Below are positions 3,365 to 19,458 of a stretch of 26,327 bases of DNA, piece by piece (position 1 is the stretch's first letter; each line of letters begins with the position of its first letter). Source of the stretch: a virus. Location: the IMG/VR virus record IMGVR_UViG_3300042905_001238, positions 1 through 26,327 of that record. One strand, written 5' to 3'. A program made the position numbers and the translations under genes. Below the pieces are notes generated by a model that was not told the DNA's origin, did not search any database, and worked only from the letters and a program-made list of their open reading frames with translations.

Positions 3365-3513
3365 GAGATTGGGAAGTTGAGATGGTTATAGATGGTGTAG
3401 TCATATCATGCAGCATGGTGGGTGAAACTGCCGCAGACGTTATAGAAGAAATACTAAGTAACGAGGATAACGTAGAGATAAGGAAGATACGACTGATACT
3501 AAGGACAGTATGA
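3361..3513 (+). CDS. small hypothetical protein (50 aa)
   Basis: A 50-residue ORF that starts at the ATGA overlap with the preceding gene and itself ends in an ATGA overlap with the next, so it fits the tiling of the operon exactly. The sequence begins MRDWEVEMVIDGVVIS, two likely beta strands, followed by a helix (ETAADVIEEIL) and a final basic strand (VEIRKIRLILR). This is a compact alpha/beta fold of unknown function. Support is mainly the exact 4-nt overlaps on both sides. Confidence 0.6.
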   Translation: MRDWEVEMVIDGVVISCSMVGETAADVIEEILSNEDNVEIRKIRLILRTV

Positions 3514-3701
3514 TATTCACCATGTACCCAGTGCTAACAAATCCTGATCTATGGAAACGGTGCAACAACTGCTTAGTGCATAGGCTAATAGAAGGTGGCG
3601 TAACTACTAAGGGTAAGTTCCGTTGTGCTAAGTGCGTAAAGTTAAGGAGAGAAGCCATGATACAAATTAAGGAGCGTAAAAATGCGAAAGTGGGGCAATA
3701 G
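3510..3701 (+). CDS. small zinc-ribbon-like protein
   Basis: A 63-residue basic protein starting in an ATGA overlap. It has two CxxC knuckles, C18-x2-C21 and C39-x2-C42, separated by 17 residues, the spacing expected of a zinc ribbon. The C-terminal 20 residues are Lys/Arg-rich. Small zinc-ribbon proteins in phage early regions often bind nucleic acid or modulate host polymerase, but nothing here specifies the target. The gene overlaps the next small membrane-protein ORF by 20 nt. Confidence 0.65.
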   Translation: MIFTMYPVLTNPDLWKRCNNCLVHRLIEGGVTTKGKFRCAKCVKLRREAMIQIKERKNAKVGQ

Positions 3702-3813
3702 TAGTGAACACAATGAAACATTAATGTACATACTCGCACTGGGGGGTACAGTCGTGGCACTACTAGCCCTGCTTGGTGCTATCTATTTGGTAGACATAGT
3801 GAGATCGTTATGA
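3682..3813 (+). CDS. small single-pass membrane protein (43 aa)
   Basis: A 43-residue ORF with a clean Shine-Dalgarno (AAGGAG at 3669-3674, 7-nt spacing). The N-terminal 14 residues are hydrophilic (MRKWGNSSEHNETL). Residues 16-38 form one hydrophobic membrane helix containing small residues, followed by a short basic tail (VRSL). Topology and size are compatible with a small holin-like, antiholin-like or superinfection-exclusion peptide, none of which can be decided from sequence. It overlaps the preceding gene by 20 nt, and its stop falls in another ATGA motif. Confidence 0.6.
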   Translation: MRKWGNSSEHNETLMYILALGGTVVALLALLGAIYLVDIVRSL

Positions 3814-3867: not shown

Positions 3868-3897
3868 GGGTGGATATACGAAGTGGAGAACACATGA
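3868..3897 (+). repeat. 30-bp direct repeat, copy 1 (gene-junction repeat)
   Basis: A 30-bp segment ending in GGAGAACACATGA that recurs at 4805-4834 with a single C/T difference (base 3879 versus 4816). It carries a Shine-Dalgarno (GGAG) and the ATG used by the Cys-rich protein at 3894. In frame 1 it can be read as a gene tail (G-W-I-Y-E-V-E-N-T-stop) identical to the end of the gene at 4655-4834, but here it directly follows a TAG, so this copy looks like a transplanted junction rather than a working gene end. Confidence 0.8.
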
Positions 3898-4079
3898 AAC
3901 AGTGCCCATCATGTGGAGGCAACTGCGGGTACAGCAAAAGTAGGGGGTGTCAGTACGGAAAGGGAGATGATAAGCCCTGCAAAACTCACCCCTCTGCCCC
4001 TCATGGGTTTTTAAGAAACGCATCGCACAATGCAGGCAGATATGTCTGTGAGTGTGAACATTGGGAGGAGAACACATGA
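3894..4079 (+). CDS. small cysteine-rich protein, putative zinc binding
   Basis: A 61-residue protein starting MKQCPSCGGNCGYSK at ATG 3894, behind a good GGAG site. An in-frame ATG at 3810, overlapping the membrane peptide by 4 nt, would give 89 residues, but its Shine-Dalgarno is weak. Cysteines lie at C4, C7, C11, C19, C29, C52 and C54, with several histidines (H32, H37, H45, H56), enough for one or two zinc sites. The C-terminal C-E-C-E-H-W motif is unusual. The gene ends in E-E-N-T with an ATGA overlap, one of a series of such ends in this cluster. Function unknown. Confidence 0.65.
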   Translation: MKQCPSCGGNCGYSKSRGCQYGKGDDKPCKTHPSAPHGFLRNASHNAGRYVCECEHWEENT

Positions 4080-4408
4080 CAATAATGACTAAGGAAGAAG
4101 TTGGTGCTTGGTGCAAAGAGATAGCGGATCAAATAAACAGCGACCCAATACTTTTAGATGTATTTACAAGAGCGTATTGCACTGAAGAGGAAGAACCCAT
4201 GAACGAGGTGAAGGCATTGCGGTTAGCGGCTGGATTAACTCAGCGTGAACTAAGCGTAGCAACTGCTATCTTCCCACTAGACGTAATAGTAAATGCGGAA
4301 CTTGGTGAGGCACTAACTAAAACACAGTGGGGGGTTGTACAGTACGTGTGCAACGATAGGATAAAGATGTTCAAACGAGATGCGGGATTAACGATTAAGT
4401 TGGGCTAG
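4076..4408 (+). CDS. HTH (XRE-like) domain protein
   Basis: A 110-residue protein starting at ATG 4076, directly after GGGAGGAG and in an ATGA overlap; the alternative upstream TTG (4061) is not needed. The N-terminal 40 residues are acidic and helical. Residues 42-95 resemble an XRE-type helix-turn-helix: VKALRLAAGLTQRELSVAT is the typical first part of this fold, followed by a less typical recognition region. A second possible start, ATG 4199 preceded by GAGG, would give a 69-residue free HTH protein. A role as regulator within the early cluster is inferred. Confidence 0.68.
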   Translation: MTIMTKEEVGAWCKEIADQINSDPILLDVFTRAYCTEEEEPMNEVKALRLAAGLTQRELSVATAIFPLDVIVNAELGEALTKTQWGVVQYVCNDRIKMFKRDAGLTIKLG

Positions 4409-4502
4409 GCAGACATGCCGAAAATGTCTTGCGGGATTCTGCGTCGGGAAACCCAGTTAATCTCGATAGATAACCGCCTGACTTATTCACTTTGGAGAAG
4501 AT
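4409..4502 (+). other. 94-bp intergenic segment with hairpin
   Basis: The longest stretch without a convincing gene. It contains a perfect inverted repeat, AGACAT (4411-4416) and ATGTCT (4424-4429), with a 7-nt loop, and a minor GGGAAACCC hairpin further on. No T-tract follows the first hairpin, so it is not a classical terminator. The segment ends with the Shine-Dalgarno GGAG (4494-4497) of the next gene. A 40-codon ORF (4416-4538) runs through it out of frame with the next gene, but I do not consider it real. Confidence 0.5.
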
Positions 4503-4658
4503 ATGAAAACAAGAGAAGAACTAGTGCAGGATGTTGATACGGCGATGACTGCTTGGCATGCTGCTGATGATGGCACAGCCGCTGATTGGCACTTTGCTGC
4601 TGTTGCTTGGGACGTTGCTAAGGCTGCTTTGGCTGATTACGACGAGGGGAACACATGA
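4503..4658 (+). CDS. small alanine-rich protein (51 aa)
   Basis: A 51-residue ORF starting MKTREELVQDVDTAM behind GGAG (4494-4497). It is helical and Ala/Trp/Asp-rich, with repeated A-D-W-H-F/A-V-A-W-D-V-A segments. It ends in E-G-N-T and an ATGA overlap with the next gene, the same ending style as its neighbours. No family is recognised, and function is unknown. Confidence 0.6.
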   Translation: MKTREELVQDVDTAMTAWHAADDGTAADWHFAAVAWDVAKAALADYDEGNT

Positions 4659-4834
4659 ACTACAAAGACATAAAAACTTTCTCTGAGAGGTGCGATTCAC
4701 ATCCTGACCATAAACAGGGGATGATTAGTGAGAGGGATATTCAGCGTAGGCTGAATGAGGAAGTGGAGGAACTGAGAGAGTACGTCGAGAATGGTCTTGC
4801 TGAAGGGTGGATATATGAAGTGGAGAACACATGA
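4655..4834 (+). CDS. small charged helical protein (59 aa)
   Basis: A 59-residue ORF beginning MNYKDIKTFSERCDSH in an ATGA overlap, with GAGGGG just upstream. Residues 24-50 are a charged helix (RDIQRRLNEEVEELREYVE). The last nine residues, G-W-I-Y-E-V-E-N-T, are encoded by copy 2 of the 30-bp junction repeat. Function is unknown. The exact overlap on both sides and the Shine-Dalgarno support a real gene. Confidence 0.6.
   Translation: MNYKDIKTFSERCDSHPDHKQGMISERDIQRRLNEEVEELREYVENGLAEGWIYEVENT
4805..4834 (+). repeat. 30-bp direct repeat, copy 2 (gene-junction repeat)
   Basis: Second copy of the junction repeat also present at 3868-3897, with 29 of 30 bases identical. Here it is fully functional in two ways: it encodes the last nine residues and stop of the upstream gene, and it supplies GGAG plus the ATG of the downstream gene. 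Confidence 0.8.
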
Positions 4835-5004
4835 GTGATAGCAGAGACGAACTAGCAGCAATGGCAATGATGGCATTAGTTATTAAGTACGGCTACAAGT
4901 GGGGCGATGACGAAGAAGAGCAACGTATGAAGGGTGCGGAGACTGCGTACAAGATAGCAGACACTATGATTAAATATAAAAAGGAGAATCAAAATGAAAG
5001 ATGA
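4831..5004 (+). CDS. small hypothetical protein (57 aa)
   Basis: A 57-residue ORF starting MSDSRDELAAMAMMALV from the GGAGAACACATGA junction. It has a helix at residues 6-20, a K-Y-G-Y-K-W-G turn, an acidic patch (D-D-E-E-E) and a second helix ending in a lysine-rich tail. It overlaps the following acidic-protein gene by 11 nt; the AAGGAG of that gene lies inside its 3' end. No family is recognised. Confidence 0.6.
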   Translation: MSDSRDELAAMAMMALVIKYGYKWGDDEEEQRMKGAETAYKIADTMIKYKKENQNER

Positions 5005-5194
5005 AGATGACAAGGTAACGGAAGCAAACTACAGGGACGAATACTACGCAGAGGAAGATGCAGAACTGCAAAAAGAGGAAGAACGTGATGAGATGCGTAA
5101 GCAGATGCAAGACGAAGAAATGCGGGAGGAGATGAGGGCAGAAGAAAACGCAGAGATAATTAGAGAAATACAAGCGGAAGAAGAACTAGGATGA
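4994..5194 (+). CDS. highly acidic helical protein (66 aa)
   Basis: A 66-residue protein with Shine-Dalgarno AAGGAG at 4981-4986. It has 28 Asp/Glu against 10 Lys/Arg, a net charge near -18, and apart from the first 15 residues reads as one long charged helix rich in E-E-M-R repeats. No hydrophobic heptad is strong, so it may be a single helix or a weak coiled coil. Such composition occurs in DNA-mimic and anti-restriction proteins, but also in ordinary phage filler proteins, so any function is speculation. Confidence 0.7.
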   Translation: MKDEDDKVTEANYRDEYYAEEDAELQKEEERDEMRKQMQDEEMREEMRAEENAEIIREIQAEEELG

Positions 5195-5289
5195 ATATGT
5201 ATCAGTACATGATCGCTATAGTTATAGGCGTAGTGTTACTTATAGGTATGGCACTGGGTGGTTTAGTTGCAATGTTACTAGGAGGATAA
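5191..5289 (+). CDS. 32-residue single-helix membrane peptide
   Basis: A very short ORF starting in an ATGA overlap with the acidic-protein gene and ending one base before the DUF3310 start. Residues 8-30 form a single hydrophobic helix with a G19-x3-G23 packing motif; the N-terminus is M-N-M-Y-Q-Y. Its own 3' end contains the Shine-Dalgarno of the next gene. Because an endolysin gene lies 240 bp downstream, a lysis-related role (holin-like pore peptide) is possible, though the length is below that of usual holins. Confidence 0.55.
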   Translation: MNMYQYMIAIVIGVVLLIGMALGGLVAMLLGG

Positions 5290-5493
5290 ATGGCAGCGAA
5301 CGATAAGCAAGTAAGCGGTACGCACTACAAAGACAAGGACATTCAACCTTGGGACTACATAGCTGCTAACAAGCTAGGTTACTTTGAAGGTAACGTAGTG
5401 AAATATGTTAGTAGGTGGAAGAGCAAGGGTGGTCTAGAAGATCTAAAGAAGGCTAGGCACTACCTCGATAAGCTAATAGAACTGAATAGATAA
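5290..5493 (+). CDS. DUF3310 family protein
   Basis: A 67-residue protein, full length for the DUF3310 family, with a strong Shine-Dalgarno (AGGAGG at 5280-5285). It shows the family pattern: V-S-G-T-H-Y-K near residue 8, Q-P-W-D-Y-I (19-24), N-V-V-K-Y-V-S-R-W-K (35-44) and a closing helix (LEDLKKARHYLDKLIEL). Related phage proteins are sometimes labelled nucleotide kinase-like, but no kinase motif is present and the biochemical role is not established. These proteins are common in phage early regions. Confidence 0.9.
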   Translation: MAANDKQVSGTHYKDKDIQPWDYIAANKLGYFEGNVVKYVSRWKSKGGLEDLKKARHYLDKLIELNR

Positions 5494-5518
5494 GTGAATA
5501 GATAAGTGAATAGATAAG
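5483..5518 (+). repeat. three perfect 12-bp tandem repeats (all-frame stops)
   Basis: TGAATAGATAAG is repeated three times without mismatch, starting in the last codons of the DUF3310 gene and running into the Shine-Dalgarno of the endolysin (AAGGAGGGG from 5516). Each unit contains TGA, TAG and TAA in three different frames, so the array closes every frame between the two genes. Confidence 0.9.
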
Positions 5519-5527
5519 GAGGGGATC

Positions 5528-5911
5528 ATGGAAACATTACTGCTGTGGTTAAGTCTGGTAGTGTACTTTGAATCAAGAGGTGAACCCGCTGTATGTCAGC
5601 AAGCAGTAGCGCATGTGGTGCTTAACCGCACTAAGGATGGGGATGTAGCTAAGACGGTACTAGCACCTTACCAATTCTCATGGGTTCCTGAGAAGATGCA
5701 CAACGGTATACTGAAACCTGAGCATAGACCCAACAAAGAATCCCCTGCATGGAAGCAAGCAGTAGAGTCAGCATTGAAGGCTATATACACAGTAGACTTT
5801 TACGAGGCTACCCACTTCCATGCAACGTACATAGCCAAGCCTAAGAGTTGGTCTAATTTGAAATTGGTGCATACCTGTGGTCAACATCATTTTTATAAAG
5901 AGATAGCGTGA
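5528..5911 (+). CDS. SleB-type cell wall hydrolase (endolysin)
   Basis: A 127-residue peptidoglycan hydrolase of the Hydrolase_2/SleB family, which usually acts as a lytic transglycosylase or amidase on the murein sugar backbone. Visible family features are the catalytic-region motif Y-F-E15-S-R-G-E19, V-L-N-R (31-34), Q-F-S-W (49-52), T-H-F-H-A (95-99), and the terminal W108 and G-Q-H-H-F-Y-K. The first 13 residues are hydrophobic (LLLWLSLVVYF) but lack a basic N-region, so a true signal sequence is doubtful. AAGGAGGGG precedes the ATG. It sits in the early operon between DUF3310 and a nuclease rather than beside tail genes, and it is the only lysis enzyme in the window. The role in host lysis is inferred from the family. 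Confidence 0.9.
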   Translation: METLLLWLSLVVYFESRGEPAVCQQAVAHVVLNRTKDGDVAKTVLAPYQFSWVPEKMHNGILKPEHRPNKESPAWKQAVESALKAIYTVDFYEATHFHATYIAKPKSWSNLKLVHTCGQHHFYKEIA

Positions 5912-6792
5912 GGGGAGTAAAGAAGGAAGTTGATCCTGCAAGCGAAAGGATGAGGTTGTACCTAGCTGGACGAAGAGACTGGGTTTCGCAGAAGCACCTT
6001 GCTAGATATTTTATTGTAAGCAGGGGGAAGGTTACTACTTTACTAAAGAAAGCTGTAAAGACAGGTATACTAGAGGAAACCGTATTTCACGATAACAAGT
6101 ACTACAGAACCCCAAGGGTATCGACAATGAGTTCATGGTCTTACAGTAGTCTCAAAACATTTGAGCAATGCCCGAAGAAGTATTACCACTTACGGATACT
6201 CAAGGACATACAAGATAAAGGTAGCGATGCTACGTTGTACGGGCAGGAACTACATAAAGCTGCTGAGGACTACGTAAAGTCAGATGTGGCTATACCCCCC
6301 AAGTTCTCGTTTGTTAAGGACGTACTAGATAAGCTGAAGAACATCACAGGGGACAAGCACTGTGAACTTAAGCTAGGTGTAAAGAAGGTAGGCACTGGAT
6401 ACGCACCCTGTGGTTTCTTTGATGCCGATGTATGGTGGCGGGGTGTAGCTGATCTGGTGATTAGGAAAGGGGACATAGCTTTCTCTGTAGACTACAAGAC
6501 CAGTAAGAACGCTAAGTATGCAGATACTAAACAGTTAGATGCTATAGCTGCTGCGCTGTTCATCCACTTCCCAGAGCTTAAGAAGATCAAGTCAGCATTA
6601 GCATTTGTAGTAAGTAAAGAGTTCATACACAAGGAGCACCACGCTGAGCTTCGTGATTCATACTTCAACACATTTGAACCGGAGCTAGATCGTCTTGCTA
6701 CTGCCGAAGAAACAGGAGTGTGGAACGCATCATCAGGGCCGCTGTGTAAGTTTTGCCCAGTACATCATTGTGAACATCAAAGGAGAAGATAA
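5908..6792 (+). CDS. PD-(D/E)XK nuclease (Cas4/RecB-like) with N-terminal winged helix
   Basis: A 294-residue protein starting at GTG 5908 in overlap with the endolysin stop; ATG 5950 and ATG 6127 are alternative starts. Residues 12-68 look like a winged helix. From M74 the usual phage RecB-like core begins (SSWSYSSLKTFEQCPKKYY), followed by the H of a RecB helix (G-Q-E-L-H-K-A-A), D182 in G-V-A-D-L-V, and D195-Y-K197, the PD-(D/E)XK active site. C88 together with C280, C283 and C288 matches the one-plus-three cysteine arrangement that holds a 4Fe-4S cluster in Cas4 and AddB nucleases. In phages these proteins process DNA ends or support recombination and replication. The N-terminal HTH appears to be an added module. 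Confidence 0.88.
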   Translation: MRGVKKEVDPASERMRLYLAGRRDWVSQKHLARYFIVSRGKVTTLLKKAVKTGILEETVFHDNKYYRTPRVSTMSSWSYSSLKTFEQCPKKYYHLRILKDIQDKGSDATLYGQELHKAAEDYVKSDVAIPPKFSFVKDVLDKLKNITGDKHCELKLGVKKVGTGYAPCGFFDADVWWRGVADLVIRKGDIAFSVDYKTSKNAKYADTKQLDAIAAALFIHFPELKKIKSALAFVVSKEFIHKEHHAELRDSYFNTFEPELDRLATAEETGVWNASSGPLCKFCPVHHCEHQRRR

Positions 6793-7058
6793 TGCCTTAC
6801 GTAAACAAGCCTAGACCATACAAGAAAGAGTACGAACAGTATCAAGGAACGGAAGAACAAAAGAAGAACCGTGCTAAGCGTAACACTGCACGTAGCAAGC
6901 TAGAGAAATCCGGTAGCGTAAGTAAGGGTGATGGTAAAGATGTAGATCACGTCAAGCCGCTGTCCAAAGGCGGATCAAATGATAGTTCCAACCTGAGCGT
7001 AAAAACCGCCAGTGCCAACAGATCTTTTAAAAGGAAAGCAGATCGCTCAGTTAAATGA
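6792..7058 (+). CDS. HNH endonuclease-like protein
   Basis: An 88-residue basic protein overlapping the nuclease stop by one base (TAATG), with AAAGGAGAAG just upstream. The C-terminal half has the HNH core: D52-H53-V-K-P-L-S-K-G-G, then N67-L and N76-R-S-F. The zinc-binding cysteines found in many HNH proteins are absent, and the N-terminal half is Lys/Gln-rich and probably disordered. Small HNH proteins of this type are frequent in phage early regions and may nick or cut DNA; some are mobile homing nucleases, but here the gene is embedded in the operon without intron signs. Confidence 0.85.
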   Translation: MPYVNKPRPYKKEYEQYQGTEEQKKNRAKRNTARSKLEKSGSVSKGDGKDVDHVKPLSKGGSNDSSNLSVKTASANRSFKRKADRSVK

Positions 7059-8617
7059 AAATAATAGACGATAAAATATTACTGGTTCGGACAAAACGAC
7101 CCCATCTAATAACAGAAAGTATCAAGAAGAGTAAGGTAGTAAGTCAGGAAGAAGATGTATACGAGGTGGCAATACACTGGGGGCTAGAGGAAGCACAAGC
7201 CCTCGCTAAACTTCGTATTAAGGACGTACCTTCAACGATCAAGCGTGACTACAAGTGGACAGGTAGGCTTACTCCATTTGCTCACCAGAAGGAAACATCT
7301 TCGTTCTTAACCTTACACAAGAAGGCGTTTTGTTTCAATGAGCAGGGTACGGGTAAGACCGCATCTGTTATCTGGTCTGCTGACTACCTCATAAACATAG
7401 GGGAGATACGCCGTGTGCTGGTGCTATGCCCCCTGTCTATTATGAAGTCGGCTTGGCAAGTGGACATGTTCAAGTTTGCTATGCACCGTAGTTGCTCTGT
7501 TGCTTATGGGGACTCTAAGACACGCGCTAAGATCATCGCTGCTGGTGCTGAGTTTGTAGTAATCAACTTCGACGGTCTTGCTGTTGTTAAAGATGAAGTA
7601 ATAGATGACGGCACGTTTGATCTGGTCGTAGTCGATGAGTGCAATGCCTATAAGAACATGCAAACTAATAGGTGGAAGGTGCTAAGGGATGTATGCGCTA
7701 GTGCTAAGTGGGTGTGGATGCTAACAGGTACGCCAGCGGCGCAGTCTCCTCTGGATGCTTACGGTATAGCAAAGCTAATTAACCCCGAAGGATGCCCTAA
7801 GTACTACGGTCAGTTCCGAGATCAGGTGATGTACAAAGCCTCGCAGTATCGCTGGATTCCTAAGCCACAGGCACAGGAGGTAGTGCACAAGGTGCTACAG
7901 CCAGCCATTAGGTTTGAGAAGGATCAGTGTCTCGATCTACCCGAGGTAACCTTTGTTGACCGTGAAGCGCCACTAACAGCGCAACAGCAGAAGTACTACA
8001 ACATGCTTAAGAGGCAGATGACTCTAACTGCGGATGGCGAATCAGTCACTTCAGTTAACGCCGCTGTTAACCTCAACAAGCTGCTACAAATATCTGGTGG
8101 TGCTGTCTATTCGGATAATAAAGAAGTCATAGAGTTTGATGTATCTAATAGGCTACAGGTAATCCTAGAGGTGATTGAAGAATCATCGCATAAGGTGCTG
8201 GTGTTTGTTCCGTTCACCCATACTATAGAGTTGTTCAGAGAGTTTCTTGAGAAGAACAAAATATCGTGCGGGGTTATCAACGGGCAGGTTTCAGTTAACA
8301 AGCGCAGTGAGGTGATTAAGCAGTTCCAAGAGTTACCTGATCCACATGTGCTAATCATACAACCTCAAGCTGCATCACACGGTCTTACACTAACTGCGGC
8401 TAGTACTATTATCTGGTATGCGCCCGTAACTAGCGTAGAGACTTATTTACAAGCCAATGCGCGAATCAACCGTCCGGGGCAGAAGAACGCCATGACTATT
8501 GTGCATATACGAGGTAGTGAAGTAGAGAACAGGTTGTATAAAATGCTGCAAGGCAACATAACAAATCATACGAAGATAATAGATTTATACCGCCAAGAAA
8601 TATCAGAAAGTGTTTGA
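7055..8617 (+). CDS. SNF2-type DNA helicase/translocase
   Basis: A 520-residue superfamily-2 ATPase. Motifs in order: Q-motif-like F-A-H-Q (75-78), Walker A G98-T-G-K-T102, Walker B V-V-D194-E195-C-N (DECN instead of the usual DEAH), motif III L-T-G-T-P (223-227), and motif VI A-R470-I-N-R473-P-G-Q in the second RecA fold. The arrangement and length fit the small phage SNF2-like helicases used in replication or recombination. The N-terminal 70 residues precede the helicase core and have no recognised domain. The start overlaps the HNH stop by 4 nt with little Shine-Dalgarno, implying coupling. It is the last gene before a probable internal promoter. Confidence 0.95.
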   Translation: MKIIDDKILLVRTKRPHLITESIKKSKVVSQEEDVYEVAIHWGLEEAQALAKLRIKDVPSTIKRDYKWTGRLTPFAHQKETSSFLTLHKKAFCFNEQGTGKTASVIWSADYLINIGEIRRVLVLCPLSIMKSAWQVDMFKFAMHRSCSVAYGDSKTRAKIIAAGAEFVVINFDGLAVVKDEVIDDGTFDLVVVDECNAYKNMQTNRWKVLRDVCASAKWVWMLTGTPAAQSPLDAYGIAKLINPEGCPKYYGQFRDQVMYKASQYRWIPKPQAQEVVHKVLQPAIRFEKDQCLDLPEVTFVDREAPLTAQQQKYYNMLKRQMTLTADGESVTSVNAAVNLNKLLQISGGAVYSDNKEVIEFDVSNRLQVILEVIEESSHKVLVFVPFTHTIELFREFLEKNKISCGVINGQVSVNKRSEVIKQFQELPDPHVLIIQPQAASHGLTLTAASTIIWYAPVTSVETYLQANARINRPGQKNAMTIVHIRGSEVENRLYKMLQGNITNHTKIIDLYRQEISESV

Positions 8618-9090: not shown

Positions 9091-9999
9091 ATGAGTAACC
9101 TAGCTATTTTCAAACAAGATGGTGCTGTTGTTTCTACCAAGAGAGAGCTTAGCGATTTTGCTAAGACATTTGAATCAGCCACTAACGCCAGTACTTCACG
9201 CCGTATACAAACCAATGTTAATGGTACGTTCAAGCGCCTAGTAAACGGCAAGCAAATCGGTGATGCCCTACGTGGTGAGATCAACGTAATCATCGTGTAC
9301 GCACTGCCAAAGGTATCCCGTATATTCTACAAAGAGAAATTTGATCCCGCTAAAGAAGCTACCCTGCCTAACTGCTGGTCTAACTTAGGTGATAAGCCCG
9401 AAGAAGCTGCATCAGACAAACAGCATACCAACTGCGCTGACTGCCCAATGAACATAGCTGGTTCTGGCGAAAGCGAGAAGAGCAGGGCTTGCAGGTTCCA
9501 ACGCCGTATCTCTGTGCTAGTTGAGAACGATGCCCCGGGCGATGTGTATCAGTTCAACATCCCTGCTAAGTCTATCTTCGGTAAGGGTACAGGCAACGTG
9601 CATCCTTTCGAGAGCTACATCAAGTTCCTGCTTGCTAACGGCGAATCACCTGACAATGTGGTTACCAACATAAGCTATGACTTGAACGCAGACTCTATGG
9701 AGCTTGCATTTACGCCACTACGGGGTATAACCGACGAAGAATATGCATTGGTTAAAGCAGCTCAAGCTAGACCTGAGACCCAGATGTATACTAAGATCAC
9801 TGTTGCTCAAGCTGACAAGGTAACTAAGCAGCCGATTGCAATAGAGCAAAAGCCTAAGATAGCCCGTTCTGATGAGCCCGACGAAGAAGATGCTGAAGTA
9901 ATCGAAGAGCCTATCAAGCGTCCGGCTAAGAAGGTAGAACTACCACCGCAAACTAAGCAGTCACTAGCAGATGTAGTTGATGATTGGAGCAAGGACTAA
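9091..9999 (+). CDS. putative ssDNA-binding / replication protein with Cys4 motif
   Basis: A 302-residue protein with AAGGAG at 9079-9084. The central region (residues 55-210) is strand-rich and carries four cysteines, C95, C115, C118 and C134, in the pattern P-N-C-W-S...N-C-A-D-C-P...R-A-C, suggesting a zinc site. Residues 245-285 are low in hydrophobics and alternate acidic and basic runs (D-E-P-D-E-E-D-A), and the protein ends V-D-D-W-S-K-D, an acidic tail ending with an aromatic like those of phage ssDNA-binding proteins. Position between helicase, HTH protein and primase supports a replication role. I recognise the Cys pattern from environmental phage proteins of unproved function, so the ssDNA-binding call is an inference. 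Confidence 0.65.
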   Translation: MSNLAIFKQDGAVVSTKRELSDFAKTFESATNASTSRRIQTNVNGTFKRLVNGKQIGDALRGEINVIIVYALPKVSRIFYKEKFDPAKEATLPNCWSNLGDKPEEAASDKQHTNCADCPMNIAGSGESEKSRACRFQRRISVLVENDAPGDVYQFNIPAKSIFGKGTGNVHPFESYIKFLLANGESPDNVVTNISYDLNADSMELAFTPLRGITDEEYALVKAAQARPETQMYTKITVAQADKVTKQPIAIEQKPKIARSDEPDEEDAEVIEEPIKRPAKKVELPPQTKQSLADVVDDWSKD

Positions 10000-13338: not shown

Positions 13339-13367
13339 CCCCCCGACTAAACACCGGGGGGTTTTTT
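13339..13367 (+). terminator. rho-independent terminator at the convergence point
   Basis: A 7-bp perfect GC stem, CCCCCCG (13339-13345) and CGGGGGG (13355-13361), with a 9-nt loop, followed by six T residues (13362-13367). It ends the rightward replication unit. The T-tract overlaps the stop codon of the leftward giant-protein gene; for that strand the same hairpin has no T-tract, so it mainly serves + strand transcription. Confidence 0.9.
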
Positions 13368-16300
13368 ATTTCTGGCCTACTCTAGACTTCTCTAGCAACG
13401 GCTCTATTATATCTAGATGCCTACGAGGGACTGCCAACCCCTCAATACCTTCTTCACGACGGTCGGCACGATTCTTAAGCGACGCATCTATCGTACTATC
13501 CTCAATTGGTAGGGCGCTATTCTTGTAGTTGTAAACGTCAATATCTTTAAGTCGAGCCTCAATAGCTTCTTCATTATCATCGGTATCATCTGCCTCATAC
13601 CGTCGAATAGCGAGGTCCAGTTTATCAAGGGCTTCTTTTCTGTCTTTCTCAATCCCCTTTAACATCCGTTGAGCAATGAAGTTCTTCTTCTGTATCTCTG
13701 CAGTCTCAGTACTGTGGAACCCCAAGGTTTGTGCTGCTAACTTAGCAGTTGTATACCATTCGGGGTCCCTAATTTCATCCCCTTCACGTGTTTGAAGTCC
13801 TTCACTGCGTAGACGGTAGGCAGTTGCAGCACCACGGAAGAACGCAGGGAGTCCCTTTTCTACTGCTCGGTTGACATGTCCACTGTTCCAGTCATCAAAA
13901 GCCCCAGCTATCTGTTCACCCATCCCACCAAAAGGCCCAGTCAATGTGTTAAACACCATGTCTTGGAACGCACCCTTAGAGTTTTCCGCAGGGGCATCTT
14001 CTGTAAACCACAGGTTATTAAGCGAAGTCGATGCGCCTATGTTTAAGTCAGTAAGCGCAGAAATAGGACCCATCTTCACACTACGTTGCAGCATTAACGC
14101 TTGTTCATCGGTTAGCCCTAAAGCCTTTGCTAGACTACTACCTTCACCAAAGAAATCTGGTATGAACGACTCACGAAACCATAAGTCTAGGCTACGTTTA
14201 CCCAGCGGATTACCCTCATCATCGTCATCATAGTATTCATCTTCATCATCGCCTTCCATATCTGGGCGCATAAGCTCCCGTACACCTTCAGCCGCACCCA
14301 TAATAACGCTATATAGTGGCAACCCAACTACTCCTGAGAATAGCCCAGTCATACCTAGTGTTCCGAAGAACTTAACCGCCGCATCTTTCCTATCTTTAGC
14401 TGGTAGCTTACGGAGCATATTGACAAAGTTACGTGTTAAGTAGGACGTCATTTGCAGCGGGTATGTCATAAACTGCGTTGCTAATCTAGTAGCAGGGGTC
14501 TTCATAAACCGGGGCTTGTTGTACTGCGTGTAGTTGAATAGGGCATCGTACACTAGCTCAGTAGCTTTCTTTATGCCCTGTTTAGTAGCCTCTGCGTCAG
14601 ATACTCCTTCCTTCTTAAGTTTGGCAAACTCAAGCTCAAACGAAGCCATGTACATTGTTTCACGGGATATGCGCTCTAGGTGATGGAAAGCCCCACCCAT
14701 AAAATTAAAGGTTGTTCTGAAGCCTTTATGTATCCACCCTTCATACTCCGCTGTAGGAGTTCTTGCTCTCGAGGTCATATCGGCTGCATACGTGGACATG
14801 AAAATATCACGGTTATTAGCCGTTTCCCACGCCGTCTTTAGTGCCTTACGATACACTGGGTCTGGGTGCTTATTAATGTAGCTAGAGTCATTGATAGATG
14901 GTTGACCCCAGTTTGTTATCACATTCCCATTTGCATCTTTCTTGCTAGTACCAAGTTTGTTAAACAGGAATGAGTATCGTGCAAAAGTCTTAGATGCTTC
15001 AGCAACCCCATACTCTGCCTGTAACACAGGTAGCCCCACTATAGGCAACTGCGTCATTTGAACCAGCGCAGACTTAGGGGCGGTTAACATATAGTAGAAC
15101 ACTGCTTGGTTACCAAAACTTGCTAATGAGTCTAGATTAAACTCCCCGGGTACTTGAGGCATCAGCTCAGCCCCAGCACGTAGTGCTATCTCGTCTATAA
15201 AAGCATTAAGGCGTAGCTTGTCTGGGTTACCTGCTAGTTCAGCGTAAGCACTACCCAAAGCATTACGTATCTTATCTGAGTACGCAAGCCGGGATAACTG
15301 ATTAGCCGCAGTATGCTGGGAGGTTATAAAGTTACGCAGCACATCAGCACTAAACCCAGTCTTACCTTGGCGATGTGTAAACCTACGGCGCATGTCTTTC
15401 TCAGGCAGCGTCATTAGATACATCTGATAGACTTCATCTTTTAGCGCTTCAATATCTGTGAGCTTGTTTGTATCCAGCATCTCAAAGATGCCCTTCAGCA
15501 TCTGGCTAGACTCAACAACTTCAGCCCGCATCTGTCTTAGGTTGTCCCCAAAATCAAGCGTCAAATCCTCTACCATCTTTTCTTTGGTGCGCTTGTCTCC
15601 AGCCTTTTTCAGTTCCTCTACCCGTTTGTCCACAGCGTTATTACGCGCCGCCGCAGATTGGAACATATAGAACTCACCGGATTGCCCCTTACCTACACGG
15701 AACCAGAAGTTACCGTAACGCATTAATGGAAAGTAGATACCTAGCTTCTTAGCATCTTGGAATGTCTTGGCAATAGATGCCATCAATTTGCCTTTGGGGG
15801 TAGAGGCATCGTTAATATCCCCGGGCACATTAGATGATGCTATCTTATCGGTTAGTAGCTGCTCATGTAGGCGGAATGTTTCTTCGTACTTATCCCGTGC
15901 CATCCTGTATACATCTTGGCCCTTACCCTTAGCAATTTTACCCAGACGATCCCATAGGGTGTACACATAGGAGATCCTATTCTTACGTTTAGTTACCCGT
16001 CCACTCGCTGCTATCTTTTCTTTTCCACTAAGCGTCGGGTCTGCATGGGCTTGTTCTAGTTGCTTTAATTCAGCATCATTCTGTAGGGCCTCGGCAAGAG
16101 TCTTATATTTAGCAGGATCTACTTGTTGCAACGTAGCTGCGTTCATAACGTCGCCTAGCAGTTTGCCACCTTCTTCTGACTTCTTATTAAATTTTACCCA
16201 TGCTGGCACTTGCTCTGCTAGTTCTCTAATCATCCTAGAGCGCATACCCGCCATTTCCTGCACGGCATCATTAACCTTATTTATGTTAACGATCTTATCC

Positions 16301-19300
16301 CCTACCCAACGGCCTATATCTTGTGTAGTTAGTGTAGGCAGGATAGCGCGAATAGAACCTACTTTAAGAGAATCCCCCACCGCTTTGAGCAGTCGGATTG
16401 CATCCTTAGAATTTCTAGTCTTTCTTATTAACTCACCGATACTTGCATTTAGATATGTATAAGTCTGTGACTTTTCAAGTTTCTCTGAGAGCTTGTTTAC
16501 TTTTACCTTCTTGGGTTTCTTAGCCAATGCTACTGAAGGAGTAGTTTTCTCTGTGAACTTAGGAGCCCCTGCTATCTTGTTCGTTACTATTATTAGGTCA
16601 TGAAATGCAGACTTATACTGCGGGCCCATGTTAAATAGATTGCGGATACTCTGCACAAAGGAGTTAATGAATGTATCAGTCTTGTATCTACCCGGTGCAC
16701 TCATTAAGAACTCTTGCATCTCAGGCTGGGTTAGCCCGTAGGATATAAACTCCTTGAGGTCATTGAATACATCCGCACCATTTTCTTTTGCCAGTATCTG
16801 TATAGCTGGAGGAACCCTGCCTTCGCTGTTCAGTAGTTTGTAGTACTCACCCGCCCTGTCCATAAGCTCCATGAGATCGTATATTGCATCTCTGGTTTTC
16901 TTATCTACAGAATTGTGATCCTTAAGATACGAATTGATCTTGGACATGGTAGCCCCATGCAGCATCTCATGGAGTAACACAGTATTATTAAGGCCACTAA
17001 TAGCATCTAGGTATATAACCCCACCCTTGCTGGTTTCAGCATACATCCCAGCAGCGCCATTACCTTTAGTAAATTCATGCCTAAGTTCAGGATCTTTTAT
17101 GTCCGTTTGGGGGTCACGAACTATGACTATAGTAATTTCACCAACGAAGGGTTTTAGCATCCTCACTAGCGTTTTTTCAAAAACAGTTCCAAAACGTGAT
17201 ATGTATGCTACGGCATCTTTAGCAGACTTAAACGCACTTATAACTGGATCGGTAGTTGGGTTTGTGTGAGTGCTTAACAATTGCCCACTTTTAGCCGTTT
17301 CTTTTATCTTGGCTTTATTCTGGGCAATCATGTGTTGGCGAGGAGTAATGTTTGGGTTAGTTATAACCTCACTAGCTATTACCCCAGCTTTATTCTTTCT
17401 GTATCTAGGGTCATTGGCAATCTTATACGCCTGTGTTAATGCCTCTATAGTTTCTACGTTACGTATAGTGTTAGCATCTTCCAGTTCTAATTCGTTAGCG
17501 TAGTCACCCTCGTTTAAAGGTGCTCTCTCTACAACAGCCTTAGCCTTTTCCGCAGTACGAATAGCATCTATACCAGACCCTTGCTGGGCACGGCGTTGTT
17601 GCTGCTTATCTGCTTTCTGTTCCGCAGTTAGTTCTTGAACTGGGCGACCACGTTTCTTACCCGCTGCCTGTAATCCGGTTAATGGGTCAACTTTAGCTTC
17701 ATCTTTGATTTCTGCAACATCTTTGACAGCCTCATCTTTGATTTCTGCAACATCTTTGACAGCCTCATCTTTGATTCCTGCAACATCTTGGACAGTATCC
17801 GGTTTGATTTCTGCAACATCTTTGACAGTCTCGTCTTTGATTTCTGCAACGTCTTGGACAGCCTCTGGTTTGATTTCTGCAACACCCCCAGTAAGCGTCG
17901 GCTCAACACGCCCAGCGGCTTCAGCTACATCAGGTAACCCAGTAACTGCAGGTTCAGCAGCTCCCCCTACGTCATCTAGTGTAGTCGCGTAAGGCTCCGT
18001 TCTTCCTGTAACATCTGCAGCAGGTGCTCCAAGTACACCCACTGATCCGGGCTCAGCTCCAGTAGGCTCTCCGGTAGGCTGCGTGATACTCGTATCTTCC
18101 CCGCCACGCACTTCAGGGCTAGGCTCAATTCCTCCGGGTTCAACTTCAGTAACAGCTCCTGTTCCTGTTGAGTCATATCCTTTCTCCTGCGCTATGATAT
18201 TTCCTGCTTGCTTCAGCGCTTCTGTTTCATTAATCCCTTTCCGTATGATAGTTCCGTCTTCAGCGACCTGATCGGTCATCAACTGGCTAACTACCGAGTC
18301 GTATTTTTTAGCGATCTCAGATTCGTTCTGCCTAACACCACTTAATCTTTCCTCAGTATCTGCTTCTTCCTGAGCTGCGGCGGCTGCGGCGGCTTCTTCG
18401 TCTCTACCTTGGGGATTGATTGCACCTACGCCAGCACCTAGTACACCACCAGCTAACCCTTCTAATGCCCCAGCCCCAGCTACGCCACGCATCGTAGGCA
18501 CGTCAAAACCTTCTTTTTGCAGGGCTACATTCTTGGCATACTGTTCTTGTGCACCTTGTGCAACTTCGGGTATTGCTTCGGCTGCACCTGTTTCTACAGC
18601 CCGTCTAACTACCCCTTTTTTAGCCGCCTCTTTACCTGCTTCCCCAACTATCTTTTTAGTCATCCCCTTTACTAGCAGAGGATCAACTCCAGTCACTGCA
18701 GTTATGCCGCCTAACGCAGCACCACCTAGTATCAACCCAAGATTCTCTCCGTTGTAGTCTTGAGCAAGCTGCGCCCTAGCTTCAACTTGTTCTGGGGGCA
18801 TACCTATTTTGGCTAGTTCTTCCTTAACCGCATCGTAGATACCACCCTTAATAACCCCCGTGCCCATAGCGGTGCCGATAGCTGCCGAAGTTTTAGATGG
18901 TACTAACCTTTGAAATGCAGTTTGTGCAGTGGTAGCAACTTTCTTAGCGGTACCAAATGCTTGTAAGCCTTTCTTCAACAATTGCCCAAAGACAAGGGGG
19001 GCCATAGTACCAAGAGCGTTAACGGTTAGATCTACTGGGGCGGTAGCATATGCTTGTAAAGCCGCAGTAATTTGATCTCCAAAGCCTTTATCCTCTGCCT
19101 CTTTCATAATACGAGCTACTTCAGCAGAATCATTCTTAGACTGAGCACTAAACAACGCAGACACAGAGTCTTCCATATTCTTTAGCTGCTGTGATGCTGG
19201 ATTGTTTGCCCCTAGTGTGTCCGTCAACATTCGGAAACCCCCAAGCGCACCCGCCCCAAGTTTTAGGGGGACATCGGCTACTTGGCGTAGTGAGCTTTGT

Positions 19301-19458
19301 TGCTCTGGAGTTGGTGCAGGTGTAGCTGGAGTTGATGCTACTGGCTCTGGGGAACTCGTTTGCTGGCGTATATAGTCTGCCAGCTTTTGTGCCGATTCGG
19401 TATCCCCCGCTGCATCTGCCCTTCTTAGAGCATCATAGACAGCATTTATATCCGTCAT
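13366..19458 (-). CDS. giant virion-associated polyvalent protein with HExxH motif
   Basis: A 2030-residue protein, 23 percent of the window. The N-terminus (1-60) is a short helix followed by a Pro/Thr/Ala linker. Residues about 127-347 hold several Ala/Gly-rich hydrophobic segments that could insert in a membrane. Six 11-residue repeats occupy 526-591. A zinc-metalloprotease motif, L-L-H830-E-M-L-H834-G, follows a strand-rich region. The middle part is mostly helical. Residues 1694-1723 are hydrophobic, followed by an acidic D/E/Y linker near 1740. The C-terminus (about 1860-1900 and on: L-P-A-F-F-R-G-A-A-T-A-Y-R, then E-G, then L-G-F) resembles the large-polyvalent-protein domain LPD38. 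It is the last gene of the virion operon, overlapping the previous by ATGA without a clear Shine-Dalgarno. A packaged, ejected protein with host-directed or self-processing protease activity is inferred. Confidence 0.85.
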   Translation of the reverse strand: MTDINAVYDALRRADAAGDTESAQKLADYIRQQTSSPEPVASTPATPAPTPEQQSSLRQVADVPLKLGAGALGGFRMLTDTLGANNPASQQLKNMEDSVSALFSAQSKNDSAEVARIMKEAEDKGFGDQITAALQAYATAPVDLTVNALGTMAPLVFGQLLKKGLQAFGTAKKVATTAQTAFQRLVPSKTSAAIGTAMGTGVIKGGIYDAVKEELAKIGMPPEQVEARAQLAQDYNGENLGLILGGAALGGITAVTGVDPLLVKGMTKKIVGEAGKEAAKKGVVRRAVETGAAEAIPEVAQGAQEQYAKNVALQKEGFDVPTMRGVAGAGALEGLAGGVLGAGVGAINPQGRDEEAAAAAAAQEEADTEERLSGVRQNESEIAKKYDSVVSQLMTDQVAEDGTIIRKGINETEALKQAGNIIAQEKGYDSTGTGAVTEVEPGGIEPSPEVRGGEDTSITQPTGEPTGAEPGSVGVLGAPAADVTGRTEPYATTLDDVGGAAEPAVTGLPDVAEAAGRVEPTLTGGVAEIKPEAVQDVAEIKDETVKDVAEIKPDTVQDVAGIKDEAVKDVAEIKDEAVKDVAEIKDEAKVDPLTGLQAAGKKRGRPVQELTAEQKADKQQQRRAQQGSGIDAIRTAEKAKAVVERAPLNEGDYANELELEDANTIRNVETIEALTQAYKIANDPRYRKNKAGVIASEVITNPNITPRQHMIAQNKAKIKETAKSGQLLSTHTNPTTDPVISAFKSAKDAVAYISRFGTVFEKTLVRMLKPFVGEITIVIVRDPQTDIKDPELRHEFTKGNGAAGMYAETSKGGVIYLDAISGLNNTVLLHEMLHGATMSKINSYLKDHNSVDKKTRDAIYDLMELMDRAGEYYKLLNSEGRVPPAIQILAKENGADVFNDLKEFISYGLTQPEMQEFLMSAPGRYKTDTFINSFVQSIRNLFNMGPQYKSAFHDLIIVTNKIAGAPKFTEKTTPSVALAKKPKKVKVNKLSEKLEKSQTYTYLNASIGELIRKTRNSKDAIRLLKAVGDSLKVGSIRAILPTLTTQDIGRWVGDKIVNINKVNDAVQEMAGMRSRMIRELAEQVPAWVKFNKKSEEGGKLLGDVMNAATLQQVDPAKYKTLAEALQNDAELKQLEQAHADPTLSGKEKIAASGRVTKRKNRISYVYTLWDRLGKIAKGKGQDVYRMARDKYEETFRLHEQLLTDKIASSNVPGDINDASTPKGKLMASIAKTFQDAKKLGIYFPLMRYGNFWFRVGKGQSGEFYMFQSAAARNNAVDKRVEELKKAGDKRTKEKMVEDLTLDFGDNLRQMRAEVVESSQMLKGIFEMLDTNKLTDIEALKDEVYQMYLMTLPEKDMRRRFTHRQGKTGFSADVLRNFITSQHTAANQLSRLAYSDKIRNALGSAYAELAGNPDKLRLNAFIDEIALRAGAELMPQVPGEFNLDSLASFGNQAVFYYMLTAPKSALVQMTQLPIVGLPVLQAEYGVAEASKTFARYSFLFNKLGTSKKDANGNVITNWGQPSINDSSYINKHPDPVYRKALKTAWETANNRDIFMSTYAADMTSRARTPTAEYEGWIHKGFRTTFNFMGGAFHHLERISRETMYMASFELEFAKLKKEGVSDAEATKQGIKKATELVYDALFNYTQYNKPRFMKTPATRLATQFMTYPLQMTSYLTRNFVNMLRKLPAKDRKDAAVKFFGTLGMTGLFSGVVGLPLYSVIMGAAEGVRELMRPDMEGDDEDEYYDDDDEGNPLGKRSLDLWFRESFIPDFFGEGSSLAKALGLTDEQALMLQRSVKMGPISALTDLNIGASTSLNNLWFTEDAPAENSKGAFQDMVFNTLTGPFGGMGEQIAGAFDDWNSGHVNRAVEKGLPAFFRGAATAYRLRSEGLQTREGDEIRDPEWYTTAKLAAQTLGFHSTETAEIQKKNFIAQRMLKGIEKDRKEALDKLDLAIRRYEADDTDDNEEAIEARLKDIDVYNYKNSALPIEDSTIDASLKNRADRREEGIEGLAVPRRHLDIIEPLLEKSRVGQK
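17686..17883 (-). repeat. six tandem 33-bp repeats encoding 11-residue units
   Basis: Within the giant gene, six consecutive 33-bp units encode residues 526-591, consensus V-A-E-I-K-D-E-A-V-K-D. Units 1 and 3 carry K-P-(E/D)-(A/T)-V-Q-D, the others K-D-E-(A/T)-V-K-D, giving a partly alternating P/D pattern. The last unit is degenerate (A-K-V-D). No spacer separates units. Confidence 0.95.

Follow-up and report, generated by a model that had tools for sequence, protein, structure and literature searches.

A recurrent 13-base gene seam as a putative mobile stop/start linker in a mosaic array of small phage genes

Why should several junctions between small phage genes, all within one kilobase, be built from nearly the same 13 bases? 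The question is raised by a viral contig from IMG/VR (the window, meaning the whole 26,327-base stretch that was analyzed), in which an array of small genes occupies part of the early region, between the DNA polymerase gene and the DUF3310, lysin and nuclease genes. An earlier reading made from the sequence alone (the sequence-only reading) had reported four such junctions, each providing GGAG and a start codon, and three of them also encoding the end of the upstream protein as N-T-stop. A scan of the window bears this out: three copies of the seam are exact (GGAGAACACATGA) and the copy at 4646 has one mismatch (GGGGAACACATGA); no other site in the 26.3 kb comes within one mismatch; the upstream protein ends in N-T-stop within the seams at 4067, 4646 and 4822; and each exact copy carries the SD GGAG, a 5-base spacer and an ATGA overlap that includes the ATG. 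The seam, 13 nt long and non-palindromic, thus contains the start of the next gene and overlaps the upstream gene. When up to three mismatches are allowed there are 18 matches compared with 6.5 expected, a number reached in 0 of 100 shuffles, and two more diverged copies (at 4190 and 4494), absent from the list of the sequence-only reading, come to light. The features of the array are collected in Table 1.

Table 1. Seam copies, cassettes and associated features of the array (window coordinates)
Feature	Position	Strand	Basis or remark
Headless gene tail GWIYEVENT-stop with seam 1 (GGAGAACACATGA at 3885-3897)	3868-3897	+	Repeat comparison
Cassette Z, 61 aa	3894-4079	+	Chimera: MKQCPSCG N-terminal part and CKTHPxAPHGFLRNASHNAGRYVCECEHW C-terminal module
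Seam 2, exact	4067-4079	+	Z stop and A start overlap
Fused cassettes A (4076-4202) and N (4199-4408), 110 aa	4076-4408	+	In-frame join through the seam variant at 4190
Diverged seam GAAGAACCCATGA	4190-4202	+	Read through in frame (EEPM); crossover bracketed in seam positions 1-7
Non-coding spacer, moves with cassette N, ends in ACTTATTCACTTTGGAGAAGAT	4409-4502	+	Neighbour comparison
Diverged seam GGAGAAGATATGA	4494-4506	+	Mismatch scan, partner comparison
Cassette K, M(K/S)TREELV...YDEGNT, 51 aa	4503-4658	+	N-terminus preceded by up to 11 different contexts
Seam 3, one mismatch GGGGAACACATGA	4646-4658	+	Mismatch scan
Cassette M, MNYKDIKTF...GWIYEVENT, 59 aa	4655-4834	+	Source of scar tail
Seam 4, exact	4822-4834	+	Mismatch scan
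Cassette S, MSDSRDELAAMAMM..., 57 aa	4831-5004	+	Right end of array; purifying selection

The cassettes behave as separable pieces. Residues 1-20 of cassette Z match a single locus (L130), and residues from about 20 to 61 match other loci. Cassette A travels alone as a 137-bp block (4066-4202) that is 99.3% identical in L005 and ends at 4202, and cassette N travels separately in L004, L005 and L093. The spacer downstream of N is found before four different genes. For the modules of S and Z, to which the estimate was confined (the values for A, M and N being left out for unaligned codons), pN/pS is 0.16 in each case (12 sequences for S); being under purifying selection, both are taken to be real proteins. 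The C-terminal block of Z (window 3966-4076) has 70-77% DNA identity with Vibrio phages of the Zobellviridae (e.g., ICP2 and 172P1), in two of which the gene next to the block is annotated as holin or hypothetical protein. The spacer, lying 3' of cassette N, is a possible regulatory or 3'-end element; its predicted RNA fold is weak (z -1.9). Cassette K matches DUF7438 weakly (E=0.005, below cut-off), two cassettes searched against annotated phages gave no match, and in a search for the host neither the exact tail-plus-seam 21-mer nor a profile of the Z block matched GTDB genomes. Repeats of other kinds also occur in the window: tandem 33-bp units (5.8 copies, 17695-17884) within the gene for a 2030-aa protein on the minus strand (13366-19458), which probably encode a coiled coil or a fibre repeat in a virion protein, and three perfect copies of the 12-mer TGAATAGATAAG at 5483-5518, between the DUF3310 and lysin-like genes.

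Comparison with the closest relatives (IMG/VR contigs L004, L005, L101-L104 and L091) shows conserved flanks around a reshuffled interior. The left flank (genes 3510-3813) is 88.6-98.7% identical in close relatives (95.5-98.7% without L104) and the right flank (the DUF3310 gene) 88-99% (93-99% without L104), figures that cover the relatives other than L091, which matches window 4065-7100 at 97.7%. In every contig compared, the set or the order of small genes in the 1-kb array between these flanks differs. The alignment that the sequence-only reading had suggested as a check thus reveals different small genes inserted between seam copies, and conservation of the same genes in the same order, which it had named as evidence against its idea, is not seen. 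The edges of BLAST blocks fall at seams: besides the cassette A block, the block 3978-4079 ends at one, and the blocks 4822-5469 and, in L091, 4065-7100 start at one. The same cassettes and seams recur in other gene neighbourhoods, namely those of L084 (with a Sak single-strand annealing protein), L086 (YqaJ nuclease) and L119 (integrase).

The loci used for statistics were mainly fetched by protein similarity, and the seam was therefore not used in finding them. The 40 contigs contain 406 distinct gene-start junctions; 31 contexts among these carry the exact 13-mer, which joins 15 upstream with 18 downstream families. The runner-up is itself a seam variant (GAAGAACACATGA, with 6 upstream and 5 downstream families), and non-seam 13-mers join at most 3. 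Exchange of partners is seen from both sides. The numbers of upstream clusters found across a seam are 8 for the gene beginning MSDSRDEL (cassette S, with 11 upstream clusters in all), 6 for MTIMTKEE and 5 for MKTREELV, and 6 different genes lie, across a seam, upstream of the gene that follows seam 2; conversely, the tails CEHWKENT, YDKENT and IEAAHGIKENT (the last with the exact seam) are followed by 5, 7 and 10 downstream genes, respectively. The same arrays have other linkers as well, among them GTGGGGCGTATGA after the tail AKREAWGV, which joins three families. The tail IEAKLKEKNT-stop with GAAGAACACATGA precedes many different genes, and together with the IEAAHGIKENT-stop junctions it represents the same phenomenon beyond the close relatives of the window (L011, L078, L103, L119, L204, L242, L267 and L322).

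Where the exchanges took place can be read from the edges of homology. In 67 pairs of sites that share only the downstream gene, identity is 1.00 at seam base 1 and drops to 0.55, 0.39 and 0.22 just upstream, and in 21 pairs that share only the upstream gene it is 1.00 through ATGA and then 0.43 and 0.29; pair sites were picked by seam similarity, so that high identity inside the seam is given by construction, whereas the sharp outer edges are not. Homology starts at the seam 59 times (7.0 expected) and ends there 47 times (7.2 expected). Over whole contigs, break points lie at 41 of 45 seam starts compared with 92 of 168 other ATG starts, most of which lie outside the arrays (odds ratio 8.5, p 3.5e-6). 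This last result is weakened by the within-array control, since within 400 bp of a seam the non-seam ATGA junctions are broken as often (38/43) as the seams themselves; the array is therefore exchanged as a whole, and the seam is not uniquely hot. The idea that the seam lets small genes be swapped accordingly survives in part: different small genes do stand between seam copies in relatives with stop and start in register, but ATGA junctions lacking the seam break equally often, and some exchanges fall inside genes.

The equal breakage of the two kinds of junction would be expected if illegitimate recombination acted at random points, selection retained intact genes, and the seam were simply carried along as a common gene tail. 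Gene-internal chimeras, a tail graft upstream of the seam in L136 (ISSP joined to YDKENT) and a seam length below known pairing minima (PMC3945230) all comport with such random joining. On its own, however, it leaves unexplained why 18 x 15 otherwise unrelated families have the same 13 nt and why AAT is lacking from Asn-Thr tails, and it does not sit well with the enrichment of seams as break points over whole contigs; as a full account it is considered unlikely.

The codon usage of these tails is informative as to the level at which the seam is conserved. Genes ending in Asn-Thr number 40 among 524 distinct genes, and all 40 spell the end AAC ACA TGA (AACACATGA), although AAC and AAT are used about equally (1282:1224); identity is therefore at the nucleotide level and does not reflect a preferred peptide end. 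The spacer AACAC is present in 32 of 59 distinct contexts among the GGAG-N5-ATGA sites of cassette loci. When only loci retrieved through protein similarity are counted, G[GA]AG-AACAC-ATGA is present in 36 distinct contexts, compared with a total of 1 for the nine other arrangements of the same spacer bases, and in polA-relative loci AACAC occurs 10 times and each permuted spacer at most once. These counts bear on the proposal that the seam is a translational coupling element, the best combination of TGA stop, SD and ATG in the host, whose recurrence is convergent. The SD, the spacer of 5 and the ATGA overlap at every exact copy are consistent with this proposal, and a 13-bp mycobacteriophage repeat, SAS, has likewise been proposed for translation initiation (PMC3203893). 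Yet permuted spacers of the same composition are essentially absent, core genes of the same contigs, including those with other ATGA overlaps, use other spacers, the seam is rare in polA-relative and DUF3310-relative phages, and variant bases in it travel with one neighbour. The first two points led to rejection of a translation optimum as the main explanation, and convergence is regarded as improbable. Nor is the 13-mer a general start site, the other outcome that the sequence-only reading had named as contrary to its proposal.

The variant bases that go with one neighbour also bracket crossovers within the seam, and they do so in several sub-intervals: positions 1-7 at window 4190 and at L145:4249, 3-8 at L116:5791 and 10-13 at L107:866. 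Point mutation could mimic some of these crossovers. The differing intervals are evidence against one fixed cut site, and hence against the possibility that a site-specific recombinase or a homing nuclease acts on the seam in an integron-like array, for which the series of small genes between copies of one short sequence and an HNH-like protein encoded at 6792-7058 might otherwise speak. Integron cassette arrays have structured attC sites and an IntI integrase; the 13 bases here are non-palindromic, no integrase was found among the window proteins scanned (those of the minus strand in part), and seam-less junctions are exchanged too, so that an integron-like site was rejected and a dedicated target of either kind appears very improbable. 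An origin of the rearrangements in metagenome assembly, as chimeras formed at short repeats, is barely credible: the closely related sequences are all metagenome contigs and some junction repeats reach 30 nt, but contigs from separate metagenomes show the same arrangements without a base difference over 700-1300 bp, the reading frames of the chimeric genes are open, and purifying selection acts on the S and Z modules.

Exchanges inside genes have given rise to chimeric proteins, as in K+Z (L103 1204-1449), K+E (L101 644-1006 and L104 4466-4783) and A+K (L107 875-1321). In the window itself, the chimera at 3894-4079 and the in-frame fusion at 4076-4408 through the seam at 4190 indicate that the linker separates or fuses genes depending on frame.

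The first seam lies next to what may be a relic of such an event. The segments 3868-3897 and 4805-4834 are identical at 29 of 30 bases, a repeat longer than the seam alone. At 4805-4834 the repeat is the coding tail GWIYEVENT-stop of the gene at 4655-4834; the frame at 3885 reads TAG GGG TGG ATA TAC GAA GTG GAG AAC ACA TGA, the same tail with TAG directly before it and no gene ahead. The tail is intact in L084, L086, L091 and L093. In the simplest reading of the sequence, 3868-3897 would be a recombination scar whose gene body was lost or replaced.

Taken together, these observations favour a reading in which the seam is a mobile stop/start linker within a hyper-mosaic array of small accessory cassettes, its copies spread by short-homology exchange; based on sequence comparison, a probability of roughly 0.6 is assigned to it. 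In one frame the linker would end the upstream gene (E-N-T-stop) and give an SD (GGAG) and an overlapping ATG to the next. Its copies would be related by descent and would have spread whenever a cassette, a gene tail or an entire junction was copied to another place. The probable route is recombination through short homology (single-strand annealing), or else template switching, when phages co-infect a host, intact stop/start coupling being selected for among the products. Since exchange at the linker would leave the stop, the ribosome-binding site and the start in register, recombinants would be viable and the linker would multiply. We infer that homology shared at the linker would make exchange more frequent, probably by way of an enzyme of the annealing kind.

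Annealing recombinases act on short homology, and one array-bearing contig, L084, encodes the annealing protein Sak, while the related L086 encodes a YqaJ nuclease; among window proteins no annealing recombinase was identified. The minimal pairing length is 31-34 bp for RecA and 23-27 bp for Red-beta (PMC3945230), so that the 13-bp seam falls short of the Red-beta minimum, and additional shared tail is present at some junctions only; for RecET, joining over 5-13 bp is reported at low frequency (PMC2327257). A conserved 302-aa early protein (9091-9999) with four conserved cysteines (C95, C115, C118 and C134) and an acidic C-terminus is possibly a ssDNA-binding protein; in the recombinase search its predicted structure (mean pLDDT 66.7) had no PDB match at E<=0.001.

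Several known systems resemble the array in part. Boundary (linker) sequences are an old and contested idea for the mosaicism of lambdoid phages and are absent at most mosaic boundaries (PMC3029335, PMC3233612). Like them, the seam is a short conserved sequence at gene boundaries where modules exchange, with different flanking genes in relatives; unlike them, a single 13-mer is shared by many unrelated gene pairs, with several copies in each genome; it carries the stop as well as the start, and the gene neighbourhoods in which it is found differ. Cluster K mycobacteriophages also have a 13-bp asymmetric repeat, the SAS (GGGATAGGAGCCC), which has an SD core and stands in one orientation where unrelated non-structural genes begin. 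The SAS precedes the start by 3-7 bp, however, and mostly sits in intergenic gaps >50 bp (PMC3203893), whereas in GGAGAACACATGA the start is part of the repeat and the upstream gene extends into it. The PeSL of T4-type phages (Arbiol 2010; Comeau 2014), as cited in PMC4503421, are likewise short cassettes, repeated at gene junctions, through which modules are shuffled; as described there they consist of promoter and terminator stem-loop, and the seam is instead a translational stop/start linker. A promoter/terminator cassette was rejected for the seam, where promoter- and terminator-like sites are not above shuffles and the neighbouring spacer folds weakly. The interlinked ninR genes of lambda (Kroger and Hobom 1982), in the account cited in PMC8022706, are packed, small, non-essential genes with ATGA overlaps, an arrangement found here as well; according to that account they have only ATGA in common, whereas in the present array the common sequence extends to 13 nt and the gene content varies by reshuffling from one close relative to the next. 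The seam is thus an unusually clear new form of known boundary-sequence mosaicism, gene-internal chimeras included.

The choice between homology at boundaries and random joining as the source of phage mosaicism has stayed open because most junctions lack boundary sequences (PMC3029335, PMC3233612). Here one 13-mer marks dozens of junctions whose partners have been exchanged, and diagnostic bases lie within it, which makes the two models separable. More tentatively, the linker may be self-propagating and act as a 13-nt homology patch at which small accessory proteins are shuffled, by gene or by domain, among phage backbones that otherwise differ; as the frame of the upstream module would decide between a split and an in-frame fusion, such an array would keep making new genes and chimeras. 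The seam also points to a way in which small phage genes whose function is unknown become recombined and fused, and it can serve as a marker when metagenomes are searched for accessory arrays of this sort.
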